A program made the position numbers and the translations under genes. Under the pieces are notes generated by a model that worked only from the letters and a program-made list of their open reading frames with translations, made no database searches and was not told where the DNA came from. This document shows positions 21,284 to 28,256 of a stretch of DNA of 64,000 nt, one piece after another. The stretch's first letter is position 1. Every line of letters begins with the position of its first letter. The stretch comes from Sanguibacter keddieii DSM 10542 (GTDB lineage: Bacteria; Actinomycetota; Actinomycetes; Actinomycetales; Cellulomonadaceae), in assembly GCF_000024925.1 (NCBI RefSeq), contig NC_013521.1, positions 1,550,001 to 1,614,000 of the forward strand. The letters are read 5' to 3'.

Positions 21284-22801
21284 TCACCCCGCCGCAGCGA
21301 GCCCGTACCCGTCCGGGTCGAAGCGCCCGTAGCGCTCGCGGAAGGTGAAGGCGAAGTCTGGCCACAGCAGCGTGAGGCGGCCGTTGCGGTCGTCGCGGTA
21401 CCAGCTGGTGCAGCCTCCGGTGCGCCACACCGTGCCGGCGCCGGCCTCGTCGAGCCACGCGGAGTACGACTCCTCGGCCTCGCGGGTCGCCTCGACCACG
21501 CCGTGCGACCGGACGTGGTCGAGGGCCCCGAGGACGTGCTCGATCTGCGTCTCGATCATGAACACCGCGGAGTTGTGCCCGAGGCTGGCCTGCGGGCCGT
21601 TGATGACGAACAGGTTCGGGAACCCGTGCACGCTGGTCGAGGCGTAGGCGCTCATGCCCGTGATCCACTGCTCGGCCAGGGTGCTGCCGTCCCGGCCGAC
21701 CACCTGCTCGGCCCACGGCGGGCGCGTCGACACGAAGCCCGTCGCGAGGATCAGGACGTCGAGCTCGTGGGCGGTCCCGTCGGCGGCCACGACGGTGTGC
21801 CCGCGGACCTCCTCGAGCGCGGCGGGGACCACCGTCACGACGGGTGAGGCGACCGCCGGGTAGTAGTCGTCCGAGAGCAGCACGCGCTTGCAGCCGATCT
21901 CGTAGTCCGGGGTGAGCGTCTCGCGCAGCGCGGGGTCGGGGACCTGGGCGGCGAGGTGCCCGAGAGCGGTCTCGCGCAGCCGGTCGACGAACCCGGGCAC
22001 GGCGTGCCGGGCGGCCAGCCCCTGCTCCATCTCCCAGAACAGCCGCGACCGCAGGCGCTCGACGGCCCCGGGGACCCGCTCGAGGCCGCGGCGCTCGGCG
22101 TCGGAATAGGCGCGGTTCCCGCGCGGCACTACATAGGGGGCGCTCCGCTGGAACAGCACGACCTCGCCGGCGTCGCCCGCGACCTGCGGCAGGATCTGCA
22201 CGGCCGACGCCCCCGACCCGACGACGCCCACGCGAGCACCGGCCGTCACGACCGAGTGGTCCCAGCGCGCCGAGTGGAACACCGGCCCGGCGAAGGTCTC
22301 CAGCCCGCGCGCCGAAGGCAGCCGCGGCTCCGACAGCCGCCCGGCGCACACCACGAGCGCGACGCACCGGAAGACGCCTGCCGACGACGTCACGTACCAG
22401 CGGGCCTCGGCCTCGTCCCAGCGCATCGACCGCACCTCGGTGCCCAGCCGCAGGTGCGGTCCGATGCCCTCGTCCTCGACGGTCGCCTCGAGGTACTCGC
22501 GGATCTCCTCGCCCGGTGCGAACACCGCGGACCACCCTGCGCGCGGCCGGAAGGAGTACGAGTACAGGTGCGAGGGCACGTCGCACCCGACGCCGGGGTA
22601 GCTGTTGTCCCGCCAGGTCCCACCGACGCCGTCGCCACGCTCGAGCACCACGAAGTCCGTGCGCCCGGCACGCGCCAGGCGGACCGCGGTCCCGATCCCG
22701 GCGAAGCCCGCCCCGACGACGACGGTCTCGACGTCGGTCGGGGTGCCGGTGGGCGTGCCGACGTGCGGCGCGTCTGCCGTGCTCGTCGTCGGGGCGCTCA
22801 T
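21284..22801 (-). CDS. Flavin-containing Baeyer-Villiger-type monooxygenase
   Basis: A 505-residue FAD/NADPH enzyme. The first Rossmann motif is 'VVVGAGFAGIGTAVRLARAG' (FAD, from about residue 27), the second 'VGVVGSGASAVQ' (NADPH, about 191). Between them lies the Baeyer-Villiger fingerprint FxGxxxHxxxWD at residues 170-181 (Phe170, Gly172, His176, Trp180, Asp181). A late 'LILATGFVS' motif is present. It probably turns a ketone into an ester or lactone, or hydroxylates an amine. It is the last gene of a coupled operon, its ATG overlapping the hydrolase stop. An esterase-like partner next door fits ketone degradation; the substrate is unknown. Confidence 0.88.
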   Translation of the reverse strand: MSAPTTSTADAPHVGTPTGTPTDVETVVVGAGFAGIGTAVRLARAGRTDFVVLERGDGVGGTWRDNSYPGVGCDVPSHLYSYSFRPRAGWSAVFAPGEEIREYLEATVEDEGIGPHLRLGTEVRSMRWDEAEARWYVTSSAGVFRCVALVVCAGRLSEPRLPSARGLETFAGPVFHSARWDHSVVTAGARVGVVGSGASAVQILPQVAGDAGEVVLFQRSAPYVVPRGNRAYSDAERRGLERVPGAVERLRSRLFWEMEQGLAARHAVPGFVDRLRETALGHLAAQVPDPALRETLTPDYEIGCKRVLLSDDYYPAVASPVVTVVPAALEEVRGHTVVAADGTAHELDVLILATGFVSTRPPWAEQVVGRDGSTLAEQWITGMSAYASTSVHGFPNLFVINGPQASLGHNSAVFMIETQIEHVLGALDHVRSHGVVEATREAEESYSAWLDEAGAGTVWRTGGCTSWYRDDRNGRLTLLWPDFAFTFRERYGRFDPDGYGLAAAG

Positions 22802-23553
22802 ACCTGCACCGTCGGGACGGCCCCGGGGTCCACACGACCGTCCACGAAAGCCTCGACGAGCGCGAGCACCTCCGCGGGTCGCTCGGCGAGCAGCGCGTGC
22901 CCGGCGTCGAGCACCGCGTACCGGACGTCGTCGAAGGACCCGACGAGCTCCTGCGTGAGCGCGGGGGAGACGAGCGCGTCGGCGCTGCCGGCCACCACGA
23001 GCGTGGGCGTGGTCCAGGCATCGGTGCCCGGTGCCGCCTCCGCAGCGCCCGAGACGTCGAGGGAGCGGGTGGCGGCGAGGCGCGCCGTGGCCGACGGGTC
23101 GGCGGCCAGCAGCGGTGCGCCTGGCGCCGTCGTCGCCGACGGGCTGAGCAGCAGCAGCCGTGCGAGGGCGGGCAGGAGCTCGGGCGACCGCTCGCCGACG
23201 GCGAGCAGCAGGTCGAGACCTTCGCGCAGCCGCGCGTCGGGCGCCACCCACCCGCCGAGCAGCACGAGACCGCGCACCCTCGGCTCGGCCGCAGCGACCG
23301 CGGTCGCCACGAGCGCCCCGGAAGACGCGCCGACGAGGACGACCGGGCCAGCCTGGGCGCGCACCACTCCCGCGACGCGCTCGACCAGCGCTGCGAGGTC
23401 AGCAGGGTCCGCACCCTCCAGGTCGACCACGACCGCAGGCCCGCGCCGCGCCAGCATCGGCTGCACGAAGGCGTACTCCGCGCCGCCACCCGAGAACCCC
23501 GGGACGAGCACCACCGGGGTCGGGCGGGACGGCTCGGCGACGGACGAGGTCAT
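22798..23553 (-). CDS. Alpha/beta-fold hydrolase
   Basis: A 251-residue cytosolic hydrolase. The oxyanion region is 'VVLVPGFSGGG', the nucleophile elbow 'VGASSGAL' with Ser78, and the acid and base are Asp192 ('AGSADALVSP') and His219 ('LDAGHALL'), so the triad is complete. Both ends overlap neighbours by ATGA, coupling it to fbiC upstream and to the monooxygenase downstream. Together with the monooxygenase it could cleave the ester product of a Baeyer-Villiger reaction; this is inference from context. Confidence 0.85.
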   Translation of the reverse strand: MTSSVAEPSRPTPVVLVPGFSGGGAEYAFVQPMLARRGPAVVVDLEGADPADLAALVERVAGVVRAQAGPVVLVGASSGALVATAVAAAEPRVRGLVLLGGWVAPDARLREGLDLLLAVGERSPELLPALARLLLLSPSATTAPGAPLLAADPSATARLAATRSLDVSGAAEAAPGTDAWTTPTLVVAGSADALVSPALTQELVGSFDDVRYAVLDAGHALLAERPAEVLALVEAFVDGRVDPGAVPTVQV

Positions 23554-25985
23554 CGCAGGCGCGCGCCGCTGATGAGGTCGGTGCGCAGCCAGGGCTCGAC
23601 AGTGGGGTGACCGTCCCCACCGCCGGTGAGGAGGTCCGACGTGTCGGCGGCCCCGTAGTCGGTGGTGCGCTGACGCACCGGGCGCCCGATCTCGTCGGCG
23701 AGGCGCACGACGTCGGCCCGGTCCAGGGCACGGTACGCCTCCGCCCCGACCTCGGGGTCGAGGGCACCGTCGAGCAGCAGCCCACCGAGGTCGTTCGCCC
23801 CGCCCAGCAGCAGCGTCTGGCTGGTGCGCATCCCGTGCTTGGTCCACGCCGTCTGCAGGTTGTCGATCCGACCGGTGAGCACGAGGCGGGCGACCGCGTG
23901 GACCGCACGGGTCTCGCGCAGCGAGGGTCCGCCGCGCGTCCCGGTGACGGTCGGCGCGTCGTGCGGCACGAAGGGCATGGCGATCATCTCGGTGAAGCCA
24001 CCGGTCGAGTCCTGGATCGCCGCGAGGCGGCGCAGGTGCGCCAGCTGCTGCTCCGGCGTCTCGACGGAGCCGTAGACGAGCGTCGCGGTAGAGCGCAGGC
24101 CGGCGCGGTGCGCGGTGAGGATCGCGCGCTCCCACGCGTCGACCGTCAGCACCGACGGACCGCCCAGGACCTCGCGGACGTCCTGGTCGAGGACGAAGGC
24201 CCCGGTCCCGGGCACCGTGTCCACCCCGGCCGAGCGCAGCACTGCGACGTACTCGTCGAGGGTCAGCCCCTGGCGGGCCGCGCCCGCGTACAGCTCGGCC
24301 GGCCGGAAGGCGTGCAGGTGCATCTCCGGGGCCTGCGTGCGGATAGCCCGCACGAGGTCGAGGTAGTCGTAGCCCGGCTCGCCGCTCACGGCGCCCTGTG
24401 CGCAGATCTCGGTGGCCCCGAGGGCCTGCGCCTCGGCGACCAGCTCCGTGACGCGACCGACCGTGAGGCGGCTCGGCGAGAACAGCGAGGCGTCGAGGTT
24501 GCGGTTGGCCACGAAGGTCACGTCGTCGCCGACGGACTCGCGTCGCACCGCGTCGGCGAGGGCAGCGAGGGCGTCGAGGTCGGCGCCGTCGGCGGAGAGC
24601 AGGACGAGGTAGTCCGCGTCGGAGAGCCCGGCCGGGGCGTCCGTGGCACGGGACAGCACGTCGGCGACCTCGCGGCTGAGGCGAGGGCTGGCTCCGGTGC
24701 CCGCCGGGGCGTCGGGGCTCCGGGGGGTCGCCCGAGAGACGAGCACGGGCTCGAAGGGCCTGCCGACGACCTCGGCGTCCTCGACGGCCAGGAAGGTCTC
24801 CGTGTCGGTGAGCGCGTCGAGGTGCGGGCGGATGCGGTCGTCGACCCAGGTCCCGGCGTCCGCGAGGTACGGCGGGTGGGCGGTGAGACGCTCGCGCAGC
24901 TCGAATCCGGCGGTCGCAGTCAACGCTGCGAGGTCGCCGATGTGCGGCCAGGGACGCTCGGGGTTCACGTGGTCCGCGGTGAGCGGGCTGACGCCGCCCC
25001 AGTCGTCGATCCCGGCGCGGACCAGCAGGCCGAGCTCGTGCGGGTCGGTGAGGTTCGGCGGTGCCTGGACGGTCGCGTCGGGTCCCATGACCACACGGGC
25101 GACGGCCACCGCGGCGATGTACTCCTGGAGCTCGAGGTCGGAGTCGTTCTGCATCGCGGTCCGCGGCTTCGCGCGGAAGTTCTGGACGATGGTCTCCTGG
25201 ACGTGCCCGTGGCGCTCGTGCGAGGCGCGGATGGCGAAGAGCGCCTCGGCGCGCTCGGCGTCGTCCTCGCCGATGCCCAGCAGCACACCCGTGGTGAAGG
25301 GGACCTTCGAGCGGCCGGCGTCCTCGAGGACGCGCAGGCGCAGCGCCGGGTCCTTGTCCGGGGACCCGTAGTGCACCCCGCCCTTCTCGGACCACAGGCG
25401 GGTCGCGGTCGTCTCGAGCATCATGCCCATCGACGGGGCGACCGGCCGCAGGCGCTGGAGCTCGGCCCACGACATCACGCCCGGGTTGAGGTGGGGGAGC
25501 AGCCCGGTCTCCTCGAGGACCAGCACGGCCATCGCCCGCACGTACTCGAGGGTCGAGGAGTACCCGTGCTCGTCGAGCCACGCCCGAGCGGACGGCCACC
25601 GGTCCTCGGGCCGGTCGCCCAGGGTGAACAGCGCCTCCTTGCAGCCGAGCGCGGCGCCGGCCCGGGCGACCGCGAGGATGTCCTCGGGCTCCATGAACGA
25701 CTGCTCGCCCGACGCGCGCAGGCTCCCCGGGGTCTCGACGAACACGCAGTAGTGGCAACGGTCCCGGCACAGCTTGGTGAGCGGGACGAACACCTTCTTG
25801 GAGTAGGTGATGACGCCGGCGCGGCCGGCACGCTCGAGCCCCTCGTCACGGATCCGGGAGGCGAGCACCAGCAGCCGCTCGAGCTCGTCGCCGCGCGCTG
25901 CGAGGAGGAGCGTCGCGTCGTCCTGGGTGGTCGTCCCGGACTGCTCGGCCCGGGTCAGGGCCGCGTCGATCGCATCGCAGGTCAT
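23550..25985 (-). CDS. fbiC: Fused FO synthase CofG-CofH (FbiC) with degenerate CofH radical-SAM site
   Basis: FbiC normally makes the FO chromophore of cofactor F420 from tyrosine and a ribityl-uracil, with two radical-SAM domains. Here the N-terminal CofG domain is intact: 'KLCRDRCHYC' gives the CX3CX2C triad Cys73, Cys77, Cys80. The C-terminal half is clearly CofH-derived ('VGDDVTFVANRN', 'MHLHAFRPAELYAGA', 'LLGGANDLGGLLLDG', 'RPVRQRTTDYG'), but the segment that normally carries the second CX3CX2C is replaced in frame by 'LDASLFSPSR' (about residues 493-502), with no Cys left. At 811 residues it is shorter than typical FbiC. The ATG at 25985 has GGAGG upstream. It is the first gene of the operon with the hydrolase and the monooxygenase. 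Confidence 0.85.
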   Translation of the reverse strand: MTCDAIDAALTRAEQSGTTTQDDATLLLAARGDELERLLVLASRIRDEGLERAGRAGVITYSKKVFVPLTKLCRDRCHYCVFVETPGSLRASGEQSFMEPEDILAVARAGAALGCKEALFTLGDRPEDRWPSARAWLDEHGYSSTLEYVRAMAVLVLEETGLLPHLNPGVMSWAELQRLRPVAPSMGMMLETTATRLWSEKGGVHYGSPDKDPALRLRVLEDAGRSKVPFTTGVLLGIGEDDAERAEALFAIRASHERHGHVQETIVQNFRAKPRTAMQNDSDLELQEYIAAVAVARVVMGPDATVQAPPNLTDPHELGLLVRAGIDDWGGVSPLTADHVNPERPWPHIGDLAALTATAGFELRERLTAHPPYLADAGTWVDDRIRPHLDALTDTETFLAVEDAEVVGRPFEPVLVSRATPRSPDAPAGTGASPRLSREVADVLSRATDAPAGLSDADYLVLLSADGADLDALAALADAVRRESVGDDVTFVANRNLDASLFSPSRLTVGRVTELVAEAQALGATEICAQGAVSGEPGYDYLDLVRAIRTQAPEMHLHAFRPAELYAGAARQGLTLDEYVAVLRSAGVDTVPGTGAFVLDQDVREVLGGPSVLTVDAWERAILTAHRAGLRSTATLVYGSVETPEQQLAHLRRLAAIQDSTGGFTEMIAMPFVPHDAPTVTGTRGGPSLRETRAVHAVARLVLTGRIDNLQTAWTKHGMRTSQTLLLGGANDLGGLLLDGALDPEVGAEAYRALDRADVVRLADEIGRPVRQRTTDYGAADTSDLLTGGGDGHPTVEPWLRTDLISGARLR

Positions 25986-26285: not shown

Positions 26286-28256
26286 GTGGCTGGTCTCATC
26301 AAACGCGAAGACGTGGACGCCGTCCGTGACAAGGCGCGCATCGAGGAGATCGTCGGCGAGCAGGTCACCCTGCGCCCCGCGGGCGTCGGCTCCATGAAGG
26401 GCCTGTGCCCCTTTCACGACGAGCGCTCCCCGTCCTTCCACGTGCGCCCCCAGGTGGGCCGGTGGCACTGCTTCGGCTGCAACGAGGGCGGCGACGTCAT
26501 CTCCTTCGTGCAGAAGATCGACGGGCTCGGGTTCTCCGAGGCCGTCGAGTACCTGGCCGGGCGCGTCGGCATCCAGCTCCGCTACGAAGAGGGCAGCGGC
26601 CCGCGCCGCACCGAGGAGCCCGGAAAGCGCCAGCGCCTCCTCGAGGCCAACCGCATCGCCGGTGCGTTCTTCGCCGAGCAGCTGCTCACCCCCGAGGCCG
26701 CGACCGCGCGCGCGTTCCTCGCCGAGCGCAGCTTCGACCGCAACGACGCCCTGCACTTCGGCATCGGGTACGCCCCCAAGGGCTGGGACGCCGCCCTCAA
26801 GCACCTGCGCGGCAAGGGCTTCACCGAGGCCGAGCTCACCGCCTCCGGCCTTGTCAGCCAGGGCAACCGGGGGATCTACGACCGCTTCCGCGGCCGGCTC
26901 ATCTGGCCCATCCGCGACGTCACCGGTGAGACCATCGGCTTCGGCGCCCGCAAGCTCTACGAGGAAGACCAGGGCCCCAAGTACCTCAACACCCCCGAGA
27001 CCGCGCTCTACAAGAAGTCGCAGGTCCTCTACGGCATCGACCTCGCCAAGCGGGACATCGCCAAGAACAAGCAGATCGTGGTCGTCGAGGGCTACACCGA
27101 CGTCATGGCCGCGCACCTGTCCGGGGTCACGACGGCCGTCGCGACCTGCGGCACCGCCTTCGGTCCCGACCACGTGCGCTTCGCGCGCCGCCTCGTCGGC
27201 GACACCAGCGCAGGCGGCGGCGTGCAGCTCGCCGGCGGAGGGTCCTCGGGCGGCGAGATCATCTTCACCTTCGACGGGGACGCCGCCGGGCAGAAGGCCG
27301 CCATGCGCGCCTTCGGCGAGGACCAGAAGTTCTACGCCCAGACCTTCGTGGCCGTCGAGCCCTCCGGCATGGACCCCTGCGACCTGCGCCAGGCCCGCGG
27401 CCCGCAGGCCGTCCAGGCCCTCGTCGAGGGACGCCAGCCGCTCTTCGAGTTCGTCATCAAGACCACGCTCGCGACCTACGACCTCGACACCGCCGAGGGC
27501 CGCGTCGCCGCCCTGCGCGCGGCTGCACCCGTCGTCGCCGGGATCCGCGACACCGCGCTGCGCCCCGAGTACGCCCGCATGCTCGCCGGCTGGCTCGGTA
27601 TGGACGGCGAGTCCGTGCTGCGCGCGGTCCAGACCGCCGGTCGCGGCCAGGGCAACGGTCAGCAGCGCGGAGGCGACCGTGGTCGACCGAGCCGCCAGGC
27701 GCCCGAGCAGAGCGGCGACGGCGGCGCCCGCCTGCCCGGTGCCGACTCCGGCGACGGCTTCCAGCGGCCCAGCCAGTCCGACCCCATCGCCCGCCTCGAG
27801 CGCCAGACGCTCGAGGTGATCCTCCAGCACCCGCACCACATCCCCGCGGCCGCCGTCGACGACCTCCCGGGCGACGCCTTCACCGTGCCCGCCTGGCGGG
27901 CCGTCCACGAGGCGATCCGTGCCGCAGGCGGCCTCGCGACCGCCGCGCAGCGCCAGGACTCCGAGTGGGTCGGGCTCATCACCGAGGAGTGCTCACCTCC
28001 CGTCCTCGCCCTCGTCAACGAGCTCGCGGTCGCACCGCTGCCCGAGGACCGCCCCGGCGCGATCGACGACTACGTCCAGGGCGTCGTGCGCGCCTTCGTC
28101 GAGCTCGGCATCACCCGCAAGATCGGCAACGCCCGGTCTCGCCTGCAGCGCCTCGACCCCGTCGCCGAGGCTGAGGCCTACAACCAGGCCTTCACCGACC
28201 TGCTCACCCTCGAGCAGCAGCGCCGCGAGCTCCGCGAGCAGAGCGCCCGCGACTGA
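26286..28256 (+). CDS. dnaG: DNA primase
   Basis: Makes RNA primers for replication; 656 residues. The N-terminal CHC2 zinc domain has ligands Cys41, His44, Cys62 and Cys65 ('CPFHDERSPSFHV', 'WHCFGCNEGGD'). The RNA polymerase core includes the TOPRIM segment 'VVVEGYTDVMAAHL' and 'IIFTFDGDAAGQKAA', with a Gly-rich insertion ('GGGVQLAGGGSSGG') between them. A Gln/Gly-rich linker (about 455-495) leads to the C-terminal helicase-binding domain. The start is the GTG at 26286, apparently leaderless. Confidence 0.96.
   Translation: MAGLIKREDVDAVRDKARIEEIVGEQVTLRPAGVGSMKGLCPFHDERSPSFHVRPQVGRWHCFGCNEGGDVISFVQKIDGLGFSEAVEYLAGRVGIQLRYEEGSGPRRTEEPGKRQRLLEANRIAGAFFAEQLLTPEAATARAFLAERSFDRNDALHFGIGYAPKGWDAALKHLRGKGFTEAELTASGLVSQGNRGIYDRFRGRLIWPIRDVTGETIGFGARKLYEEDQGPKYLNTPETALYKKSQVLYGIDLAKRDIAKNKQIVVVEGYTDVMAAHLSGVTTAVATCGTAFGPDHVRFARRLVGDTSAGGGVQLAGGGSSGGEIIFTFDGDAAGQKAAMRAFGEDQKFYAQTFVAVEPSGMDPCDLRQARGPQAVQALVEGRQPLFEFVIKTTLATYDLDTAEGRVAALRAAAPVVAGIRDTALRPEYARMLAGWLGMDGESVLRAVQTAGRGQGNGQQRGGDRGRPSRQAPEQSGDGGARLPGADSGDGFQRPSQSDPIARLERQTLEVILQHPHHIPAAAVDDLPGDAFTVPAWRAVHEAIRAAGGLATAAQRQDSEWVGLITEECSPPVLALVNELAVAPLPEDRPGAIDDYVQGVVRAFVELGITRKIGNARSRLQRLDPVAEAEAYNQAFTDLLTLEQQRRELREQSARD

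Follow-up and report, generated by a model that had tools for sequence, protein, structure and literature searches.

Loss of the CofH cluster site beside a predicted flavin monooxygenase suggests a new O2-dependent F420 route in some actinobacteria

The head group of F420, FO, is made by two enzymes with radical-SAM domains, a mechanism that the accessible portion of a 2021 review presents as universal among all studied producers (PMC8498797). According to the same portion, CofH turns tyrosine into a p-hydroxybenzyl radical that it joins to ribityldiaminouracil, CofG then abstracts a hydrogen and closes the ring, and the two domains seem to work independently of each other, through diffusion (PMC8498797). 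In the literature that we searched, which took in few subscription papers and no preprints as such and included accessible portions of PMC8498797 and PMC3288000, neither an O2-dependent FO route nor a CofH-less FbiC was described. The closest known systems are the CofG-CofH fusion FbiC (NF006687, TIGR03550, TIGR03551), the radical SAM enzymes MqnE, HydE and ThiH, and the type I Baeyer-Villiger monooxygenases (BVMOs). In cofactor synthesis, HemF and HemN form an O2-dependent and O2-independent pair in which an O2-using enzyme replaces a radical SAM step.

Here we analyse 64,000 nucleotides of Sanguibacter keddieii DSM 10542 (contig NC_013521.1, positions 1,550,001 to 1,614,000; hereafter the window, in which positions are numbered from its first letter). 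Taken as a whole, the window is probably best explained as carrying an FO synthase operon, for the F420 head group, with a substitute for the radical-SAM step of CofH. Like FbiC, the product of the window's fbiC-like gene, P0001, has a CofG domain that exceeds its family cut-off and keeps its cysteine triad, a CofH fold, and NRN, TExCxQG and other motifs, and genes of the P0001 type stand beside F420 genes in some genomes. Unlike FbiC, the P0001 type has a CofH half that lacks the [4Fe-4S] triad and falls below the CofH cut-off, some of its lineages split the CofG and CofH-like genes, and a Baeyer-Villiger-type flavin monooxygenase (FMO) accompanies it in every such genome that was read. A model of the CofH half resembles MqnE (aminofutalosine synthase, PDB 6XI9/6XIG) more than any other PDB entry, but MqnE is a radical SAM enzyme and the cluster-less domain lacks the triad that would bind a cluster. 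The FMO of the window, P0003, shares its fold and the motifs FxGxxxHxxxW and GCKR with steroid monooxygenase (4AP3), phenylacetone monooxygenase (1W4X) and cyclohexanone monooxygenase, but it is about 26 to 30% identical to the best-matching type I BVMOs in structure alignments and belongs to a group of its own that is linked to the cluster-less CofH. The locus differs from HemF/HemN in retaining the radical-SAM fold itself, minus its cluster, likely with an oxygenase as partner. What seems to be new is that one step of the known F420 pathway is done by a new pair, a cluster-less CofH and an FMO.

The gene for P0001 lies on the reverse strand (23550 to 25985; coding frame 23553 to 25985, stop codon 23550 to 23552) and encodes 811 amino acids that join an intact CofG half to a cluster-less CofH half. 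The CofG domain (residues 60 to 389; reverse strand, 24819 to 25808) scored 475.8 bits against TIGR03550, well over the NCBIfam cut-off of 213.35, and its radical-SAM triad was read directly from the sequence as CRDRCHYC at residues 73 to 80 (reverse strand, 25746 to 25769). The CofH domain (residues 456 to 780; reverse strand, 23646 to 24620) did not reach the TIGR03551 cut-off of 374.1, with 318.6 bits (289.1 when the whole genome was searched), and the whole protein fell narrowly below the FbiC equivalog cut-off (NF006687; 1006.9 versus 1018 bits). At the site where canonical FbiC carries its CX3CX2C segment (residues 494 to 506; reverse strand, 24468 to 24506), NRN (494 to 496) is followed by LDASLFSPSR (497 to 506) and then by LTVG, and no CX3CX2C was found when the whole C-terminal half was read. 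Nearby motifs have drifted, with AQGA for MQGG and VYGSVE for MYGHVD, and the frame is uninterrupted until the stop. The first-pass annotation of this DNA had claimed an intact CofG triad, a CofH half without one, drifted motifs and an open frame that is no simple pseudogene, and each of these observations holds. Its further claim that CofH chemistry should be impossible stands for radical-SAM chemistry by the C-terminal half, which is excluded because the triad is missing. The in-frame loss of a segment that it described is real as a state but not as a single event, as the segment after NRN varies in length between relatives, being long in L035 and very short in L004; none of 30 triad-less rows aligned over it contained the triad. 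We conclude that the lost cluster segment is not one fixed deletion.

Loci were labelled D when the CofH domain lacked the triad and C (canonical) when the triad was kept. Among the best 80 relatives from a scan of 84,980 species genomes, which were ranked by score and so give no prevalence, 11 were triad-less and 69 had the triad. The 11 belonged to Frigoribacterium, Rathayibacter, Arthrobacter, Humibacter, Herbiconiux, Curtobacterium, Promicromonospora, Cryobacterium, Subtercola and two loosely named metagenome-assembled genomes, one of which is labelled Acidobacteriaceae. A family sample of 200 genomes gave 27 matches (one weak), 19 of them triad-less. An order sample of 396 genomes gave 63 matches, and the DNA of 51 was read; the remainder were a weak match, G462, and 11 genomes (G243, G244, G249, G252, G298, G311, G324, G332, G337, G363 and G398) whose triad state lay outside the reading and in which no FMO at E <= 1e-100 stood beside FbiC. 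Together the three surveys yielded 55 genomes with a triad-less CofH domain. A class-wide search with an FMO profile added 6, for a total of 61, and these 6 are not independent support because they were found through the FMO itself. The first-pass annotation had proposed a look at related species, and the triad-less state proved common to relatives across the 61 genomes, where the cluster-less domain occurs either as half of an FbiC or as a separate protein. The same-genus homologue (L002/L137) has the same state at 88% identity. Reading of the site was partial in broken drafts such as G110, and the CofG triad was intact at those D loci in which CofG was fully read.

The fbiC-like gene is followed on the reverse strand by an alpha/beta hydrolase (P0002, 251 amino acids; 22798 to 23553), the ATG of which overlaps the fbiC stop as ATGA, and by P0003 (505 amino acids; 21284 to 22801), the ATG of which overlaps the hydrolase stop in the same way. 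Three fragments in which the CofH site could not be assessed (L195, L196 and L204) were dropped from 59 triad-less rows to leave 56 loci, and tblastn detected an FMO at all 56 (55 genomes, as L043 and L144 belong to one genome). With the 6 genomes found through the FMO, it is the companion of the cluster-less CofH in 61 of 61. An FMO was detected by tblastn at none of 91 C loci, with flanks reaching to 6 kb or the contig end, so that a distant FMO was beyond reach; canonical loci with short flanks (L018 to L020, L023 to L026 and L030) stand outside that count. The CofH and FMO alignments of D loci were at most about 200 bases apart, or about 750 to 1470 bases at the seven loci with a hydrolase; the exceptions were the fragmentary L173, with 407 bases, and L152, with 2.6 kb that include a run of N. 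The FMO of L035 spans two overlapping frames, reflecting either a frameshift or an error. The hydrolase was considered as an essential partner and rejected, being present at just 7 of the 56 D loci (the window, L033 to L036, L059 and L137).

The best PDB sequence matches of P0003 were steroid and phenylacetone monooxygenase. Its model (pLDDT 90.5) matched the folds of cyclohexanone and phenylacetone monooxygenases at a TM of about 0.8, and alignment and fold search together found dinucleotide-binding motifs, a BVMO fold and the FxGxxxHxxxW sequence, which we take to be the BVMO fingerprint. This sequence was invariant in its G, H and W and nearly so in its F across 34 FMO rows (30 from D loci, 4 from loci that lack FbiC), and all of GCKR, presumably the motif of the catalytic arginine, was invariant in the same rows. 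P0003 is thus a predicted type I BVMO. The family is large (184 of 394 class genomes matched the profile), and the class-wide search yields no prevalence because many of its BVMOs stand without an adjacent CofH; FMO relatives with a hydrolase but no FbiC also occur (L197 to L200). The size of the family and these FbiC-free relatives mean that linkage to F420 does not by itself fix the FMO substrate. Comparison of 12 D loci showed no conserved neighbouring gene as an obvious source of a BVMO substrate.

The cluster-less CofH is encoded separately, directly before the FMO, in 17 genomes of families f14 and f8 and in G702; CofG has its own gene there. The order in G702 is CofH-like, FMO, CofG, and in two of the 17 (G241 and G297) CofG lies on a different contig. 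Quick trees with some long branches were built for CofG, CofH and the FMO, with L151, L152, L161 and L173 left out of the first two. In the CofH tree, all 51 D rows formed one clade (support 100, starred); shared loss of the motif columns was rejected as its cause, for the clade persisted once those columns were removed (98, starred). In the CofG tree, the D rows were spread over three places, with a large fused group in one, f8 next to the canonical G280 in another, and f14 among canonical members of f17, f18, f8 and f14 in the third. Forcing the CofG D rows into one clade was rejected (AU p 0.001), and with it a single origin of the whole CofG-CofH-FMO set. Forcing CofH of f8 and f14 to group with the kin of their own CofG was rejected at p 0.014 and 0.0008, respectively, for groups that were named after the trees had been seen. 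The D-linked FMOs also grouped together (support 91, not starred), with the FbiC-free BVMOs outside. The sole row marked as other within that FMO group, L161, is itself a D locus. The CofG tree offers only three independent pairs, too few for significance by a sign test (p 0.25). The trees indicate that the CofH-like domain travels with the FMO rather than with CofG, and because D CofH forms one clade while its CofG partners lie in three places, the module seems to have replaced CofH repeatedly. On a plain reading of the trees, a module of CofH-like domain and FMO moved by transfer and displaced the CofH half in at least two more lineages.

The genome of S. keddieii is a single contig of 4,253,413 bases, in which a search with P0001 matched P0001 alone (16 of 16 candidates scored) and TIGR03551 matched only its two halves. 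Among 54 D genomes, none had a CofH over the TIGR03551 cut-off: the best score, 331.7 bits, was that of the D domain itself, and matches beyond the D domain and CofG were stray, at less than 30 bits. Canonical control genomes scored 520.5 and 532.7 bits. A separate cofH, the first of two explanations offered by the first-pass annotation, is therefore not supported by the protein and TIGR03551 searches of this genome or by the TIGR03551 search of the 54. fbiA (cofD), which the annotation had suggested looking for, is present at 2,682,819 (330.9 bits), followed by cofC at 2,687,927 (137.3 bits) and cofE at 2,688,835 (235.2 bits); all three exceed their cut-offs, and some 1.1 Mb separates them from fbiC and the FMO. 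Judged by these family matches, the known F420 pathway genes are present except CofH. fbiA exceeded its cut-off in 59 of 60 D genomes tested of the 61 (in G132 it is split at contig ends), and two same-genus genomes without FbiC, G040 and G056, lack fbiA too. In 14 of the 61, fbiA and the FMO were less than 10 kb apart (G202, G203, G205, seven genomes of f19 and four of f45).

The cluster-less domain is under constraint. Between the window and the same-genus homologue, dN/dS was lowest for CofG (0.09), followed by the CofH-like domain (0.16), the FMO (0.21) and the hydrolase (0.35). Of the CofH columns that are near-invariant in canonical proteins, D retains 57 of 163 at a level of at least 90%; CofG, which is thus somewhat relaxed too, keeps 132 of 171. 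R561, T633, E642 and G740 were fixed in 51 of 51 D rows at positions where canonical proteins have S, S, D and E, respectively, and P744 occurred in 96% of D rows. The model of the CofH half (residues 425 to 811, pLDDT 89.7) aligned with MqnE at a TM of about 0.76, and MqnE was also the only PDB sequence match. We conclude that the cluster site is lost and that, as modelled, the CofH/MqnE fold is kept, and from the pattern of conservation the domain seems to have a new function under constraint. The second explanation offered by the first-pass annotation, a new role for the protein, is accordingly the better of its two, although it overlooked the FMO partner and the retained F420 pathway.

Most likely, P0001 still takes part in making FO and the CofH step is done another way. 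That CofH has been replaced by the cluster-less domain together with the FMO is well supported by the genomic evidence, and we regard it as likely. The intermediate given to CofG is probably the usual one, because CofG is kept and comes from several lineages; if it is the same, then the FMO and the cluster-less domain must form the bond between uracil C5 and the benzylic carbon. The predicted FMO, with NADPH and O2, would activate a tyrosine-derived compound, and the cluster-less domain would bind 5-amino-6-ribitylaminouracil and guide the bond from its C5 to the p-hydroxybenzyl carbon, giving the usual CofH product for CofG to cyclise to FO. The chemistry that we prefer can be offered only tentatively: Baeyer-Villiger oxidation of a tyrosine-derived 4-hydroxyphenylacetyl carbonyl compound (4-hydroxyphenylpyruvate, or its aldehyde or ketone) might give a p-hydroxybenzyl ester, which might lose its acid to form a p-quinone methide that the nucleophilic C5 captures, with no need for a radical. 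A common metabolite such as 4-hydroxyphenylpyruvate is a likely source because the 12 D loci have no conserved neighbour that would provide a substrate. A difficulty for that compound is that alpha-keto acids tend to lose CO2 with peroxides. For BVMO action on phenylacetaldehyde, the accessible portions of the literature searched held nothing useful. In other forms of the replacement idea, the FMO would oxidise the amine of tyrosine, or the diaminouracil would be oxidised.

Other readings share part of this evidence. The FMO and cluster-less domain could make or modify a head group of another kind, from which FbiA, CofC and CofE, all present, would produce an F420 analogue; both the CofG and CofH domains drift from the canonical state, and the residues invariant only in D point to a new function. 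We consider such an altered deazaflavin unlikely, given that FbiA exceeds its cut-off in nearly every D genome tested and that CofG, drawn from three places in its tree, probably sees its usual substrate because it retains most of its near-invariant columns. It is somewhat more doubtful still that CofG does both steps, or that the FMO acts with some other protein, while the CofH half serves solely for scaffolding or binding. The intact CofG triad at the D loci with a fully read CofG speaks for this; against it, the domain follows the FMO and not CofG in the trees, exists free beside the FMO and has conserved new residues of its own.

Uptake of FO from neighbours, with the fbiC/FMO operon having drifted to an unrelated catabolic BVMO role, appears improbable. 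Hydrolase and BVMO pairs without FbiC do exist (L197 to L200, with L198 in a setting that looks catabolic), and one genome, G520, has fbiA and no FbiC match; against this stand the exact pairing of domain and FMO in the loci read, the purifying selection on the domain and the proximity of fbiA in 14 genomes, and the words salvage, uptake and auxotroph are absent from the accessible portion of the 2021 review (PMC8498797). Finally, nothing in the window speaks for an assembly error or pseudogene, although the copies in drafts G110 and G132 are broken or gapped. The same state in the same-genus homologue and in 61 genomes means that it is no sequencing slip, and with the open frame, the dN/dS of 0.16 and the single-contig genome it rules out error, decay or a private deletion, to which we give a negligible chance.

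Replacement of the CofH step by the cluster-less domain and FMO is thus the reading that we favour, and it suggests that in some actinobacteria loss of the CofH cluster beside an O2-using flavin enzyme created a new O2-dependent F420 route. Sanguibacter keddieii ST-74 is described, in the accessible part of its report, as primarily aerobic and facultatively anaerobic (PMC3035225). If the reading is true, at least 61 genomes would share a conserved exception that gives cofactor biosynthesis an O2-dependent branch, a radical-SAM fold would be reusable without its cluster, annotation by the name FbiC alone would hide a different reaction, and FO and F420 production in industrial hosts might gain a less oxygen-sensitive route. 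In its fullest form, which we put forward as speculative, F420 synthesis would have a second, O2-dependent branch in which the CofH fold, rid of its cluster but with its pyrimidine site retained, turned into a C-benzylating enzyme that works without radicals and receives a p-hydroxybenzyl electrophile (p-quinone methide), made from a tyrosine metabolite, from a BVMO, the two-protein module moving between lineages and slotting in beside the resident CofG.

The D operon of Arthrobacter MYb23, Humibacter and Curtobacterium is clustered with fbiA, with genes that are cofC-like and cofE-like by sequence resemblance rather than family search, and with an F420-type dehydrogenase. In S. keddieii, a luciferase-like oxidoreductase adjoins cofE. 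It passes the F420-dependent family TIGR03557 (283.9 bits versus a cut-off of 210.4) and scores higher against the FMN-dependent family TIGR03885 (316.6 bits), yet below the cut-off of 398.7 for that family.

Pairs of a hydrolase and a Baeyer-Villiger-type flavin monooxygenase (FMO) were found at three loci, L197, L199, and L200, with no FbiC within the stretches and no fbiA over the curated family-profile cut-off in the corresponding genomes (G479, G322, and G514, respectively). The hydrolase-paired FMOs of these loci were 45 to 50% identical to the window FMO, and the FMO of L197, which shares the LGHNS motif with the F420-linked FMOs, was their nearest outgroup. FMOs paired with a hydrolase at L217 and L218 were 52% identical to the window FMO; there, no CofH match was found in the 4.4 kb read, and fbiA was present in both genomes (G809 and G624, respectively).

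In G520, a 2.7-Mb genome on one contig, fbiA scored over the cut-off and a search of the contig returned no match to the window FbiC-like protein. The organism may take up FO, the F420 head group. G520 also contains a hydrolase-FMO pair (L198), the surroundings of which look catabolic when judged by eye, with neighbors resembling an SDR, a malate/lactate dehydrogenase, a fumarylacetoacetate hydrolase, and an alcohol dehydrogenase. The FbiC of L183, in the fbiA-bearing genome G233, was strongly divergent, formed a long branch in both the CofG and CofH trees, and has both triads, CRDRCGYC and CTFKCRFC.

In the Arthrobacter MYb23 operon combining a triad-less CofH domain with an FMO, the FMO is read in two overlapping frames (L035:9172-10690), owing to a frameshift that either belongs to the gene itself or arose in its draft sequence. 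Another operon of this type, L040, is from a metagenome-assembled genome labeled Acidobacteriaceae and clustered with Promicromonospora-type (g7) sequences; it may reflect transfer or a wrongly binned contig.

In S. keddieii itself, a luciferase-like oxidoreductase adjoining cofE (L117:16591-17586) scored over the cut-off for F420-dependent TIGR03557; its score for FMN-dependent TIGR03885 was higher, yet under that family's cut-off. Upstream of the window fbiC-like gene, in divergent orientation, the neighboring gene at window positions 26286-28256 looks, from its sequence alone, like dnaG (primase).
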